32,708 nt of DNA from Pilasporangium apinafurcum. Its lineage: Eukaryota > Oomycota > Peronosporomycetes > Pythiales > Pythiaceae. The notes beneath the pieces were generated by a model. That model was not told the origin of the DNA, made no database searches, and saw only the letters and a list, made by a program, of their open reading frames with translations. A program made the position numbers and the translations under genes. The stretch spans positions 28,381 through 61,088 of the forward strand of contig BCKE01000085.1 in NCBI GenBank assembly GCA_001600495.1, given 5' to 3'. Numbering within the stretch: the first letter of the stretch is position 1; each line of letters begins with the position of its first letter. Shown here piece by piece: positions 747-12,825 of the stretch.

Positions 747-2267
747 ATGAAGAGCTTGCATAGCTTGTGTGGGTTCATTGTGCTCGCTACAGCATTCCCT
801 AGGGTGTCCAGTGCAAATTTTCAATCCACAAAAAGCGCTTCCGATCACAGTGTTACTCGCTCCACCTTGAAACCAGGTACTGATGTTGTCTTTACATCGA
901 AACTACAAGCGGATACGACTGGATTCATCACAGATCTCCACAATTGGATCGAAAGACTGGTTGGGACCGTGGATAACGCCGAGTTGCTCACCAGCTCCGA
1001 ATTCGAAGTGAAGATCTCGGACAGTGTGGATACACAGCATCTATGCGGTAATTTGGTATCTGGAGACACGTTTAATCAAGTCAAGAAGTTTCTAGACACA
1101 CCAAAGACCGCAACCTTGACCGAAAGCGATGCCGAAACGTTCATGTGGCGCCCGTCGAGTGACTGTCTATCCAAACAGAACTCGTACTTTGTGAACGGCA
1201 CTACACATGCCACTTTTGTCGCTACATGTGGAGATGAGACGTTGCTCACTGTGTCAACTGTTAGTGGAGGCGTAACGAAGCAATTTTTAGGCAAGCAAGT
1301 CGAATCCACAAGTGCAATGATCGCTGCCAATTTTGACGACAATACAGTCAATGCTGTAGGTGCCACCGGAACCCAAACGTCGGCATTGGAGCTTCGTGTG
1401 ATGCCCAACAATGTGAATAATGTCATGAAAATGTGGAAGAAGACTATACGCCAATGCGCGAGCCACAACTCGCTGAGCTTCAAAGGTGTCGTCGGTGGCG
1501 GTTGGATTCAGAAATTCTCTCACTTTCCAGAGATAGGCAGCTCGACAACCACGTCAGCGGTGCAGTATGCAAACACGTTTGAGATTAGTTACCATGGCAA
1601 ACCGTCGGTTCCAACACAAGCTCCTTCTACTGCAACGTCATCTACTGGTTCATCAGATGCAGGAGATTTCCACTGGACGCCAGGTTCAAGTAAGACAGGA
1701 TCGGGGTCTGTTGGTGGCTTCAACGCCGGATCTGGCTCATTTGCTGCTCCGAATGCTGGGTCAGGGTCCACGCAGACATCAGATTCGAATGCTTCAGCAG
1801 GTATGGACCATGATGCTCCCAGCACGACTCTCCCAGTTACATACTCGCCAATACATATCCCGTCGACTGATGTTGGCGCAACAGATACGGAAGTATCGAG
1901 CTTTTCGAGTGCAAGTGCAAGCATGGCAACAGGCTCTTCTTCACAAGATGACGCCGGTTCATCGGATGAGGCGTTCATTGGTGAAGGCTCCACGGACCCA
2001 GCGGCATCAATCTCTCATACCACGGAAATCATCCCATTTATTCCGACGCCATCAAGCGATCCAATGTCACAATCCTTCGTCGCTAGTCAAGGTGAGCACA
2101 CAGTCAAGACTGCTACAGCCCATGAAACAACCACGTCAAGCCCAAGTGGATTCTTTTTCGCTGGAATGGGGGCGGCACTTGTGGCAGCGGCCGTAGCGTT
2201 TACAGTGTATCGCACACGTATCCGTCGTAGCAATTACGACAGTCTCCCCACCAGAGCGACTTTTTAA
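747..2267 (+). CDS. Secreted Ser/Thr-rich type I membrane protein
   Basis: An intronless gene of 506 aa; I do not recognise the family. The open frame runs back to a GTG at 726, but the first ATG is at 747 and begins a good signal peptide: charged start, hydrophobic core LCGFIVLATAF, probable cleavage after SSA at about residue 23. An ectodomain of ~240 residues follows with four well-spaced cysteines (LCGN, DCLSK, TCGD, QCASH), enough for two disulphides. Next is ~200 residues of Ser/Thr/Gly-rich linker with repeated GSGS units, likely heavily O-glycosylated. A ~20-residue hydrophobic segment (about 469-488, AALVAAAVAFTVY) and a short basic tail (RTRIRR) end the protein. The layout suggests a stalked cell-surface or cell-wall-associated protein; a GPI-anchored form is less likely given the basic tail after the membrane span. 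The function of the ectodomain is unknown. Confidence 0.8.
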   Translation: MKSLHSLCGFIVLATAFPRVSSANFQSTKSASDHSVTRSTLKPGTDVVFTSKLQADTTGFITDLHNWIERLVGTVDNAELLTSSEFEVKISDSVDTQHLCGNLVSGDTFNQVKKFLDTPKTATLTESDAETFMWRPSSDCLSKQNSYFVNGTTHATFVATCGDETLLTVSTVSGGVTKQFLGKQVESTSAMIAANFDDNTVNAVGATGTQTSALELRVMPNNVNNVMKMWKKTIRQCASHNSLSFKGVVGGGWIQKFSHFPEIGSSTTTSAVQYANTFEISYHGKPSVPTQAPSTATSSTGSSDAGDFHWTPGSSKTGSGSVGGFNAGSGSFAAPNAGSGSTQTSDSNASAGMDHDAPSTTLPVTYSPIHIPSTDVGATDTEVSSFSSASASMATGSSSQDDAGSSDEAFIGEGSTDPAASISHTTEIIPFIPTPSSDPMSQSFVASQGEHTVKTATAHETTTSSPSGFFFAGMGAALVAAAVAFTVYRTRIRRSNYDSLPTRATF

Positions 2268-8079: not shown

Positions 8080-11000
8080 CTATGATGACAATGGAGATGC
8101 TGTTGCCTGCACTGCTTGATCTACGAGATAAAGCAAGGCTGCTAGCTGCCCACCAAAAGTAAAGTCTCCTGATGTCGTTATGAGGAAATTGGTGTCCACT
8201 TGACTGATCGACATGCGCCGCGTTGCGGCTCCTGGTGACAAAGCAAGCTTTGGTGATGTTGGTGCAATGATGGAGGAAGATCCTGATGATTCACCGCTGA
8301 AAGAAAAAGAAGCAAACCGAGAAGTACCAGCTGTGGGGGATTGCATGCGTTTGAACTCTGGAGACGGGACTTCCATAGCATCATTTCGAAGTGTTCCAGC
8401 AAAACCCAAAGTGTATTGCTTCCGATACTCTTGGAGCTCCTGATCAGTTTTCTCTACGAGGGCATTCGCATAATCAATTGGATCTTTAAGGAAAAGCTCC
8501 TTCATGACAAATGTTAATAATTCACATTCGACAGTCGATGCAGCCCCAGATAGGTTTAAATTTTGCTTATTCTGATCGGAGTGAAGGTCAACAGTGGGAT
8601 TCGCTTGGTCGAAGCGCAGCCAATGTGATGCGAAGCGCTTTCTTGTCTTCTCGATGATCTAGAAATAAGCGCATTAATAGCAAGTAATTTAACTGCAAAC
8701 ATTTTGCGCATGTGTCTCAATCTTACATGCAGTTTATCTGTAGAGAGAGATTCCAAGTGTAACTGAAGCATGAGTTCTGTGACACTCCGGATTTCGTCGG
8801 CTCGTTCTTCATCACGCATTTGCTTTAACATTCCCAACGCTGGTCTGAAACACTCTAGCGCTCGATATCGATCGCCCAATTCTTTTGCAAGTGCGCCCAA
8901 TTGCAGATATGAGTTCATTAGATCAACATGATTCCGTGGCAATACCTCCTTTCGAAGTGAAAGTGCTTGCAATGCAGCATTGTACGCTGCTTCAGTTGTT
9001 GTATTTCTGTTTGCTTTGGTGCTGTTGGTGTCCATGTAAATTGCCGCTTTGAGATAGTAACAAGCAGCAACGAGGATTTTGTATGTAGTAGCTAGTTCGA
9101 TTGGATCTTGGAAATACCTTTCATAGACAGCGATCACATCCTCCAACACACCAATTGCTTCCTCGTACGCGCGATTTTCGAATAAGAGCGTTCCCTGCTT
9201 CCGTCGGATGTCAGCATACACCAAACTTGCTTTCCCGAAGCACTCTCTCGTCACATGAACACACTCATTTAGCACCTCTTGCGCTTCCTGAAGCTCGCCA
9301 TGCTCATACAAGATTTCCATCATCGTTAAATATGTGTCAGTAAAGAATGGATGCGCACTTCCTAAGTGCCATTTGCCGACTGCTATCGCATTAGCAAAGT
9401 GCATCCTCGCGGCTTCGATGTCCCCAACCATATACTTGGCCTTCATACATACTGTGTGTGCCTTCATCTGGATGGCGTGATTCTTTGGACCGTCTTCGAC
9501 AGCGAGGAACGCAAACTGCTCAGCTTTCTCTCTATCGTTTAGTAATAAACATAAATCTGCTGCACATGTCAGAAGATGACAAATCCGGATCTTGTTATCG
9601 CCTGTCGACACTGTGTCAAGAATTGAGAGATGAAGTTTGATGCTTGCCAGGGCTTCTTCATATTTCCCATCAGCTACGAGTTCATCTGATTGCTCTAAAT
9701 AATGCTCGCATTTGATAGCTGTCCGTGCAAGCAACTTTGTTATGGGTGATATGCTAACAAGATTTTCGGTATTGAACGGTTCGATCGCTTTGAAGTTGTA
9801 GTGCATATGATCATCGAAACGCAGATTTATTTGCACTTGCACAGCATGGAAGAGTTGGGGCAAATGAATTACATCGTCACCCATCAATGCCTCTAACGTT
9901 GGGGGTACATTATGGCCACCAAATTTACCCCATATTTGAGGCAAGATTCGGTCTTTCCAGAACATTCGCGCATCTAGTGAAGATATTACTCCAAAGACTA
10001 GGTTGAAAAATGTCAATGTCATGTGATGGACATCACCTCGAAGTTTCGCTTGAGCAACTTGTCGCGTCGTTTCTTCATTTGCTTCAGTGCCAAGGTCCTT
10101 CCCTTCATCAGAAGAATTAGGCTCATTGTCTTCACCGGGTTCCGATTGTGATCGAAGGGCAGTTAGCTGGGATGTTTCGTGCACGAGTGTCCGTAAAGAC
10201 GCGCGAAACTCCACCTTACAGGCTCGAGCTAACATTTCAGTGAAAAAAAGGCGACGAATATGCTTCGCTGTGGCCAATTCATAACAGAGACCAAGATATC
10301 GGATGTTGATGCCTTCAGCATGGAGTGCATGAGTGAGTGAATCGCTATCAAAGACGTTAATAATCTTGTTCTCTTCCAGGCTTCGAACAAAAGATGGTAC
10401 AATAACACTCTGTAAATACTCACCAGCACTGATGGCTGCTTGCTGTAGGAGATGAGACTCCAGCTTGGTTTGTCGAGCATTGGATTCCAGTATCTCTAAA
10501 TCTTTCGATGGGTCCACGTGTGCGTTTGCATGGAACAAAAGCATCTCTCCGTGCTGTCGTACAAATTCAGGACGCATTTTGAACAAAGCACACTCAATTG
10601 CAGACATTCGTACGACGCCGTTGCTATGGCCACGTGTTTGAACATCAACCGGAAAGAGATCATAGACGTTTTGAAGCCAATACGTAGTTGACAACTTTGG
10701 AGATATGCTTGTCGAAATTCCAGCGGAAATAGGGAAGAAAGCAGGTAATGTTCCATCTGCGCACACTTCATTCTCATTGTCATCATTGATATGTTGCGTA
10801 CATAACGTGTCTGTCATCAGCCCCAGGCGATCACATACGCCCTTCAGCTGGTTCTGCATATATGATGTTCCTTTACCAGATTTGCTTTCACGTGAAGAAA
10901 CGACTGCCCGCATACTCGTCATATACGCTTGCGACGAAGCAATCACATACATGCGATGGCCTAAATAGTCGACTGTGCATTGCAGTGGAATACGAAGCGC

Positions 11001-12825
11001 CTCTGCATGAGATAATGGAGAATCCTCGGCTTCATTGTGAAGGCTTTCTATCATATCGTGAAGAGCGCGTGCGGCTCGAATTTGGTGCCCCATCAATTTG
11101 TGGAATGCGATCACTTCGAGGGCGTCTTCGTGAGATCCAGAGCCAACATGAACGTAAAGGATGAGTCCATTTCCACGATAGCGGTGTATAAGTGGTTCTT
11201 GCAACCAATCTATTTGATGAATCCCATCGGTCGACAAGAATTGGTCGTTCATCGTATTTTTCTGCGGACGTTGTGTTTTGATGTCATCGTTAAGTACCAT
11301 CTCGCCAATGATTTGATATACCAGCGCTTCTGCTGCTTCAAAGAAAGTCTTCAGGAATGCTGAAACTCGAAAGCCTTGCGCGACTTCGTCATTGATGTTG
11401 GCACTATGCAACAAGAGGTCATATTCTTCGTTCCATTTGTAAGACCGTTGAATGTCGGCTTCATTCACTGTGTTTGGATTCCTGTTCTGGTCAGCTTTCG
11501 CGATATCAGCATTCCCTTCGGCATTTAATACGAGGTTTGCCAGGTCTTTCGTCATTGATGCTGCTGAACCGTCGCAAGTGCCGATCTGATTATTAACAAC
11601 TTCCTTTCTCTCTTGAACGCGGTGCATGACCTCCTGAGCATTGTAGTAGTTCTTGAGCCACGTCAAGAACCTATCACGCGCAATCTTCCCTTGTCCACTG
11701 GGGTCTAGTTGATGTTGGATGATGGGATACTCCGCTGAGTCTCCTTGCCATCCAATGTATATTATCAATCCGGTCGGTGTGATGAAAGGAAACCCACAAC
11801 AAAAAATGAACAGTTATGCAGTCACTAATGAACGTAAGAAAAGAATGGATATCATCCTAAGCAGAATAGGAATCTTGGCCGCGTCAACTTTCCCCGAACG
11901 CCTGATATCATGCTGCAAAGAGCAAGTTGCATGAGGTCATTTTCGTCAAACACGACATTCACTTACACGCACAAACAAATCATAACGCACACTAGAAAAC
12001 GCTTCATCAGCACGTCGAAGTCTCTCTGCTACGCTACAAAATCAGAAATACGGAAGATAGCAATGGCATAGACATGCCAACAGCCAACAATACACTGTCG
12101 TGTAGACTAATCTCGTACACAGAAGAGCTCGTGTTAGTGGCAGGCGAAGCGTATCGAGTCTATAATGGATTGCATGATAATACATTAAAGCTGCACATCT
12201 TGCGTACACACGAGAAATATTATAAACCGCGCAGCATAAGTCACACATGTCCGCACCTGAAAAGCGTGTTTCCACTCGTCACGTTCTTTCTCGGATGAAC
12301 ATGCAAATACTAGAGGTTTCTGTGTCTATAAGTACACATTCCAATAAACGAAGACGCCTCCATGATGTATTACCATGTGATGCTTTATTAAGCTTTTGCG
12401 TCGATCACTTTACCTTTTCTGTGGGTGCCAGTTGAAAGACAAACTTGCGATTAAGTTTCTTCTGCGATTCCGCATATTACACAACTTGAGCACCAAACAA
12501 TCACAACAGGCTAACACTCGCAAATAACAGACACACCAACCTCATCAGCGGTGGCATATTCATACTCCATAAGGTTCACCACACTACTCTGCCGTGAGCT
12601 TGAGAGTGCAAACGCTTGCGGTTCGGACGCCATGGGGAAATATTTCAACACATTCCCATCCAAATGTACCCACTTCTCAGTCCATTTCGCGCCAAATAAG
12701 CCATGCTGTAACTACCAAAGCATACAGCACACACGAGAACATCATATATACTTATCAATTCGTCATCTACATTGAACATTTTATAGAACCTTGTAAAGTT
12801 TGCCTGATTTCGGCTCCACGTTCAT
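8080..12825 (-). CDS. PH / EF-hand / CLU / TPR protein (clustered mitochondria family), 9 exons
   Basis: Predicted ~1366 aa. Exons on the minus strand: 12825-12790, 12711-12541, 12461-12414, 12325-12257, 12159 to about 12119, 12033-11967, 11912-11853, 11756-8727, 8658-8080. The exon 5 donor is ambiguous; other junctions keep frame uniquely. Residues ~5-108 form a PH domain (SGKLYKLQHGLFGAKW start; EKERDEWKHAFQ final helix). Next is an EF-hand pair with loops DIRRSGKVDAAK and DPSGQGKIARDR, both lacking Glu at position 12, so calcium binding is doubtful. Then come the CLU domain (~270-450), a CLU-central region (INIRYLGLCYELATAKHIRRL, ~645-690) and TPR-like helices (~830-1110). The C-terminus is Ser-rich. 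CLU proteins (Clu1, CLUH) bind mRNAs for mitochondrial proteins and keep mitochondria dispersed. The PH/EF-hand front is not part of yeast or animal CLU. ATG 12825 is the first in-frame AUG. Intron 7 appears to be AT-AC. Confidence 0.82.
11757..11852 (-). other. Probable U12-type AT-AC intron
   Basis: This 96-nt intron, read on the minus strand, begins ATATCCATTC (U12 AT-AC donor consensus ATATCCTT) and ends AATATAC. Splicing joins LLRM to IGWQGDSAEYP. That gives exactly 18 residues between the Arg of the first EF-hand exit helix and the Asp starting the next loop, the same as in calmodulin. GT-AG alternatives in this stretch keep frame only with irregular spacing. A TTCCTT core suggestive of a U12 branch site is present but lies ~26 nt from the acceptor, farther than usual. 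Confidence 0.6.

Follow-up and report, generated by a model that had tools for sequence, protein, structure and literature searches.

Strict rules usually serve to recognise minor introns: a 5' splice site RTATCCTT, a branch motif TTCCTTRAY, and an acceptor near the branch. For the U12-type introns of Phytophthora, the cited part of the survey gives the 5' splice site as RTATCCTT, in which one C may be T (PMC2846911). The distance from the branch to the 3' splice site of U12-type introns has its optimum at 11-13 nt, according to the section drawn on here (PMC3584512).

The DNA analysed, called the window, is a stretch of 32,708 nt from Pilasporangium apinafurcum (contig BCKE01000085.1, assembly GCA_001600495.1), in which positions are counted from the first letter. 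On its minus strand, 11852-11757 is a segment of 96 nt in phase 0 that starts with ATATCCATTC and ends with AATATAC, as a first-pass annotation had described it. With a probability of about 0.87, this segment is truly an intron of the AT-AC type that the minor (U12-dependent) spliceosome most probably removes, and one of a small set with a long branch-to-acceptor distance. It would be a probable U12-type AT-AC intron and apparently a lineage variant. Its length is a multiple of three, but an in-frame TAA at 11816-11814 (minus strand) appears when it is read through, so that its removal is required to join the two halves of the gene. Removal leads to the join LLRM|IGWQGDSAEY in a PH/EF-hand/CLU/TPR protein, which agrees with the LLRM/IGWQGDSAEYP of the first-pass annotation, and the exon join expected under the AT-AC model is ...CTTAGGATG|ATTGGATGG.

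All parts of the gene lie on the minus strand. The PH region is assembled from five exons deduced from frame and homology (12705-12541, 12461-12414, 12325-12257, 12159-12096, and 12028-11967), and its PH domain matches PF00169 at 39.7 bits. The five upstream introns, deduced in the same way, are GT-AG, and all of their acceptors are YAG. The exon directly upstream of the AT-AC intron (11912-11853, HDIRRSGKVDAAKIPILLRM) contains the first EF-hand loop by frame and protein match, and the downstream open frame (11756-8556) comprises IGWQGDSAEYPIIQHQL, the second EF-hand loop, and the CLU, eIF3_p135, and TPR domains. The linker between the two 12-residue EF-hand loops measures 24 residues, and the second troponin C lobe is aligned ungapped. 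Calmodulin also has 24 residues between its EF-hand loops; the exact 18-residue calmodulin spacing once claimed for this join does not agree with the measured linker. The EF-hand pair is called degenerate because its Pfam scores are below the cut-off. As a whole, 8556-12705 has an unusual architecture, in which PH and an EF-hand pair are fused to a CLU/eIF3_p135/TPR body. Paralogues in the genome amount to only two partial matches of 77 and 57 aa, and the viral contigs searched contain no orthologues of the gene.

The signals of the intron resemble those of U12-type introns with several deviations. The 5' splice site ATATCCATTC (11852-11843) can pair with the U11 of the same genome at +2 to +6, +8, and +9, with the A at +7 mismatched (7/8). 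Compared with RTATCCTT, ATATCCAT agrees at 7/8 positions and departs from the rule by the same A. The branch-like TTCCTTTCA (11791-11783) has the TTCCTT of TTCCTTRAY at 11791-11786, whereas RAY is replaced by TCA. Its predicted pairing energy with the U12 of this genome is -8.9, which is inside the sister range of -7.7 to -10.2 and is equalled in 31/300 shuffles. The A at 11783 lies 26 nt from the AC acceptor, which is outside the 11-13 nt optimum, and the 3' splice site ATAC occupies 11760-11757. The strict published rules would leave the intron out of the U12-type, its +7 position being A and its branch motif imperfect; yet it most probably works like one. In the proposed course of events, U11 would pair with ATATCC.TT at the 5' end and U12 with TTCCTT, the AC about 26 nt downstream of the branch would serve as acceptor, and splicing would restore the EF-hand pair between the PH domain and the CLU/TPR body. 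Splicing itself, the agency of the minor spliceosome, and the identity of the branch A are all inferred from sequence.

The motif alone says little. In the window and four 10-kb stretches (145,416 strand-nt in total), ATATCC is at background level, counted 36 times against a mean of 37.0 for 90 anagrams, and ATATCC..TTCCTT..AC was found three times with the window intron included. Only the coincidence of the motif with a junction set by the protein carries information. The chance of ATATCC and AC at such a junction is about 5e-5 with three equivalent registers, a figure that simplifies the matter because homology leaves the junction unfixed to the base. For a TTCCTT placed so that its A lies 19-40 nt from the intron end, the chance is about 0.03.

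The strongest competing explanation is an intron of the GT-AG (U2-type) kind whose borders are shifted and which removes the stop, for example 11825-11730 (GTGACTGC...AGCGGAG) or 11833-11744/11735. Among 84 in-frame open joins, 33 are AT-AC, 19 AT-AG, 15 GT-AC, 12 GT-AG, and five GC-AG. The first-pass annotation had held that GT-AG joins keep frame only with irregular spacing, which is wrong: 11825-11730 also leaves a linker of 24 residues, and linker spacing alone therefore does not decide against GT-AG. Moreover, the gene's deduced donors are loose (GTTGGTGT, GTGCGGAC), and Pfam scores are nearly equal, with EF-hand_7 giving 15.8 bits for GT-AG 11833-11744 and 15.2 for AT-AC, all below the cut-off. 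Pfam EF-hand scores do not discriminate between the splice models and were dropped as arbiter.

The protein fit points to the AT-AC junction. In a search of solved structures, the AT-AC model matched troponin C with an E of 8.2e-4 and 23.1 bits over two lobes; the lobes score 11.2 and 10.2 bits, neither passing alone, and the better one is ungapped over 62 residues. The GT-AG models run in the same search were three of the 12, those judged most plausible, and they reached E values of 0.72 (11825-11730), 0.26 (11833-11744, for its best EF-hand match), and 0.18 (11833-11735), losing 7.5-9.4 bits to the AT-AC model in the troponin C comparison. Elsewhere in the genome, residues 13-69 of the AT-AC model are matched by a frame without interruption (C27:114451-114621) at 39% identity and an E of 5.5e-4; this match, for which the AT-AC model was the sole query, covers 57 residues in 171 nt. 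Six of the 12 GT-AG donors lie inside the intron and would make an ISILFL.. exon, while the other six cut the first EF-hand loop, and Pfam, run on two of these six, assigned no family. In addition, two of the three tested models have the acceptors GAG and AAG, which are unlike the five YAG acceptors of the gene.

The coding statistics point in the same direction. The 27 nt at 11756-11730, exon under AT-AC, score +5.1 bits, and 65 of 115 coding windows are as low, whereas the 27 nt at 11852-11826, exon under 11825-11730, score -7.8 bits, as low as none of the 115. These coding windows come from the long exon of the same gene, and training used that exon and, in the first run, a neighbouring frame. 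Because the first intron model included sister introns, the statistics were rerun with the five GT-AG introns of this gene as intron model, which gave +2.1 for 11756-11730 and -3.7 for 11852-11826, the latter again 0/115. The first 18 nt of the AT-AC intron, which the 11833 donors would turn into exon, score at a level reached by one of 173 coding windows. By protein fit and coding statistics, the best splice model for 11852-11757 is AT-AC, with AT at 11852 and AC at 11757, and a small chance is left to the GT-AG intron.

Similar introns appear to exist elsewhere in the genome (36.5 Mb in 136 contigs, used for intron and snRNA searches alike). A strict AT-type pattern, which demanded the U12 branch motif and set no acceptor (ATATCCTT followed by TTCCTTRA within 16-76 nt), occurs 11 times genome-wide against three in the reversed control. 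Six of the 11 sites join open frames as AT-AC, and L012, L061, L066, L067, and L069 gave no convincing join. Homology spans the junction in three of the six: L011 is an otubain (PF10275 and OTUB1 structures; branch A to intron end 26 nt), L063 is a TBCC protein (PF07986, with 61 residues aligned over the join to 61 profile positions; 26 nt), and L068 is an HSBP1 protein (PF06825, with 3ci9 ungapped; 37 nt). In L064, an IPK domain starts directly after the join (25 nt), and L062 (21 nt) and L065 (25 nt) join by frame only, without a Pfam match. Including the window, intron lengths are 96-116 nt. In all six sisters and the window, no AC in the downstream frame lies closer to the branch A than the chosen one; nearer ACs occur in other frames only (L011, 16; L062, 4; window, 4, 6, and 10), and a second, later in-frame AC follows in L062 at 39 nt and in L065 at 49 nt. 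In-frame GT-AG alternatives, sought inside the intron or up to 24 nt from its junctions, number none in L062, L063, and L068, five in L011, one in L064, and three in L065; one of those in L011 differs by one extra residue only. The best U12-pairing segment of L068 lies off the motif itself. Because the six sisters have 21-37 nt, the 26 nt of the window intron looks ordinary in this genome, and 21-37 nt from branch A to AC looks like the local norm on these six cases. The long branch distance raised as a caveat in the first-pass annotation is thus confirmed as a measurement (A at 11783) and softened as an objection.

Other motif searches gave mixed results. The genome contains ATATCCTTT 486 times against 193 for the reversed motif; this count was rejected as evidence by itself, being mostly background. 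Of the 100 listed places, 28 were read regardless of branch motif and none was convincing by eye, and of the five listed places with the strict branch motif, L011, L062, and L064 join but L012 and L061 do not. A strict short pattern gave two matches (L011, L012) against zero in the control, and the short-distance pattern ATATCC..CCTTRAY..YAC gave 28 against 17, with repeated places counted. Motif matches can mislead, since among those of the short-distance pattern L019:1501-1566 (ATATCC..CCTTAAC..AC), in a gene we take to be STT3-like, fits an ordinary GT-AG intron and was set aside as a false AT-AC match or a relic. L044 (~1501-1583) and L034 (~1501-1581, minus strand), from the same pattern, are possible AT-AC introns with ordinary, short branch distances of 11 and 13 nt and joining frames; L044 also has eight GT-AG alternatives. 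By eye, similar sequence surrounds the ATATCCTTT matches in L071/L089 and in L003/L084, suggesting dispersed repeats.

The AT-AC intron could also be excised by the major spliceosome, since U2-type AT-AC introns are known, according to the cited part of the source (PMC8280824). A TTGAT near 11769 could, by eye, be a U2-like branch site. Donors of AT-AC introns of the major spliceosome resemble ATAAGT, and the donor here fits its own U11 at seven of the eight positions +2 to +9. U12 branch motifs are present in the sisters, but they were a requirement of the search. Removal by the major spliceosome is given a very slight chance, lower than that of the GT-AG intron. Finally, two genes or a pseudogene with no intron, in which the downstream frame, long on its own, starts independently, can practically be dismissed, as joining the two halves yields a full EF-hand pair and the upstream PH domain comes together in the same frame across five deduced GT-AG introns.

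Of the four minor snRNAs named in the first-pass annotation, three had matches in the genome. One gene each was found for U6atac (85 bits), U11 (52.7 bits, cut-off 39), and U12 (52.7 bits, E 2.8e-8, just below the cut-off of 53), while U4atac had no match in the genome search, a result that by the tool's own statement does not show absence. As for protein factors, AT-type minor introns are affected when CENATAC is depleted, and the strongest interactor of CENATAC is TXNL4B (PMC8280824). That annotation had also called ATATCC...AC the hallmark of the minor spliceosome. AT-AC as best model, the presence of U11, U12, and U6atac, and the existence of sisters are in line with this, but the wording is overstated for a site with A at +7 and no RAY.

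The sole U6atac gene found (L010:1501-1630, equal to G000:C10:186626-186755, minus strand) is, by eye, preceded by a TATA-like stretch and has a T-run as terminator. Its sequence shows GUUGAGCCGAGAGA in place of the UAUGAAAGGAGAGA of the Rfam consensus, with GCC instead of AAG at nt 12-14, and its element for pairing with the 5' splice site is, as read from this gene, largely lost. U11 retains AAAAAGGG. The predicted donor pairing falls from -7.1 kcal/mol with the consensus to -2.8 with the genome's own U6atac in four of six sisters, and from -5.2 to -1.2 kcal/mol for the window donor. No canonical U6atac copy was found; the genome search gave 10 matches with 2-3 mismatches against 25 in the control. 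The changed stretch is complementary over nine pairs to the 5' end of U12, which is likewise off consensus, and the U6atac/U12 duplex of -11.2 kcal/mol is matched by 38 of 5000 shuffles, the nine-pair complementarity hinting that U12 and U6atac may have co-evolved a shifted helix. In human suppressor assays, changes of intron C5 and C6 were matched by changes of U6atac G14 and G15 and U11 G6 and G7, as given in the consulted part of the report (PMC4980772). The U6atac change is not reported in the titles or abstract openings of the literature searched.

These features raise the tentative idea, which we regard as rather doubtful, of a lineage with a rewired minor spliceosome, in which minor introns would be (nearly) all AT-AC, the acceptor would lie some 25 nt beyond the branch A, and 5'-site choice would rest mainly on U11 because U6atac has GCC in place of AAG. 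The strict GT-type pattern (GTATCCTT) gave one match against one in the control, and another strict GT-type search gave the same counts; weaker GT-AG minor introns could have escaped such strict patterns. If the acceptor rule is shifted and the U6atac element changed, standard classifiers would overlook such introns, leaving gene models wrong at these junctions; if true, this would also provide a natural experiment on how far the minor spliceosome depends on U6atac pairing.

Compared with known systems, the AT-AC minor intron is of a known kind, and what differs is the A at +7, the lack of RAY, and a long distance from branch to acceptor that the sisters have too. In the cited parts of the sources, canonical U12-type introns share the 5' ATATCC, the TTCCTT branch core, and the AC end, but have their branch-to-acceptor optimum at 11-13 nt against 21-37 nt here (PMC3584512). 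Blastocystis ST1 likewise has AT-AC as the dominant subtype (77%, 196/253), but contains hundreds of minor introns with a mean below 42 nt, whereas few were found here and these are 96-116 nt long (PMC5608401; PMC10639083). Phytophthora shares AT-AC ends, few introns per genome, and minor snRNAs (Bartschat and Samuelsson 2010, PMC2846911). In contrast, the introns counted there conform to RTATCCTT and possess an effective branch site, where the window intron has A at +7 and an imperfect branch, and Phytophthora has a GT-AG U12-type intron in L31, where the strict GT-type pattern here does not exceed its control (PMC2846911).
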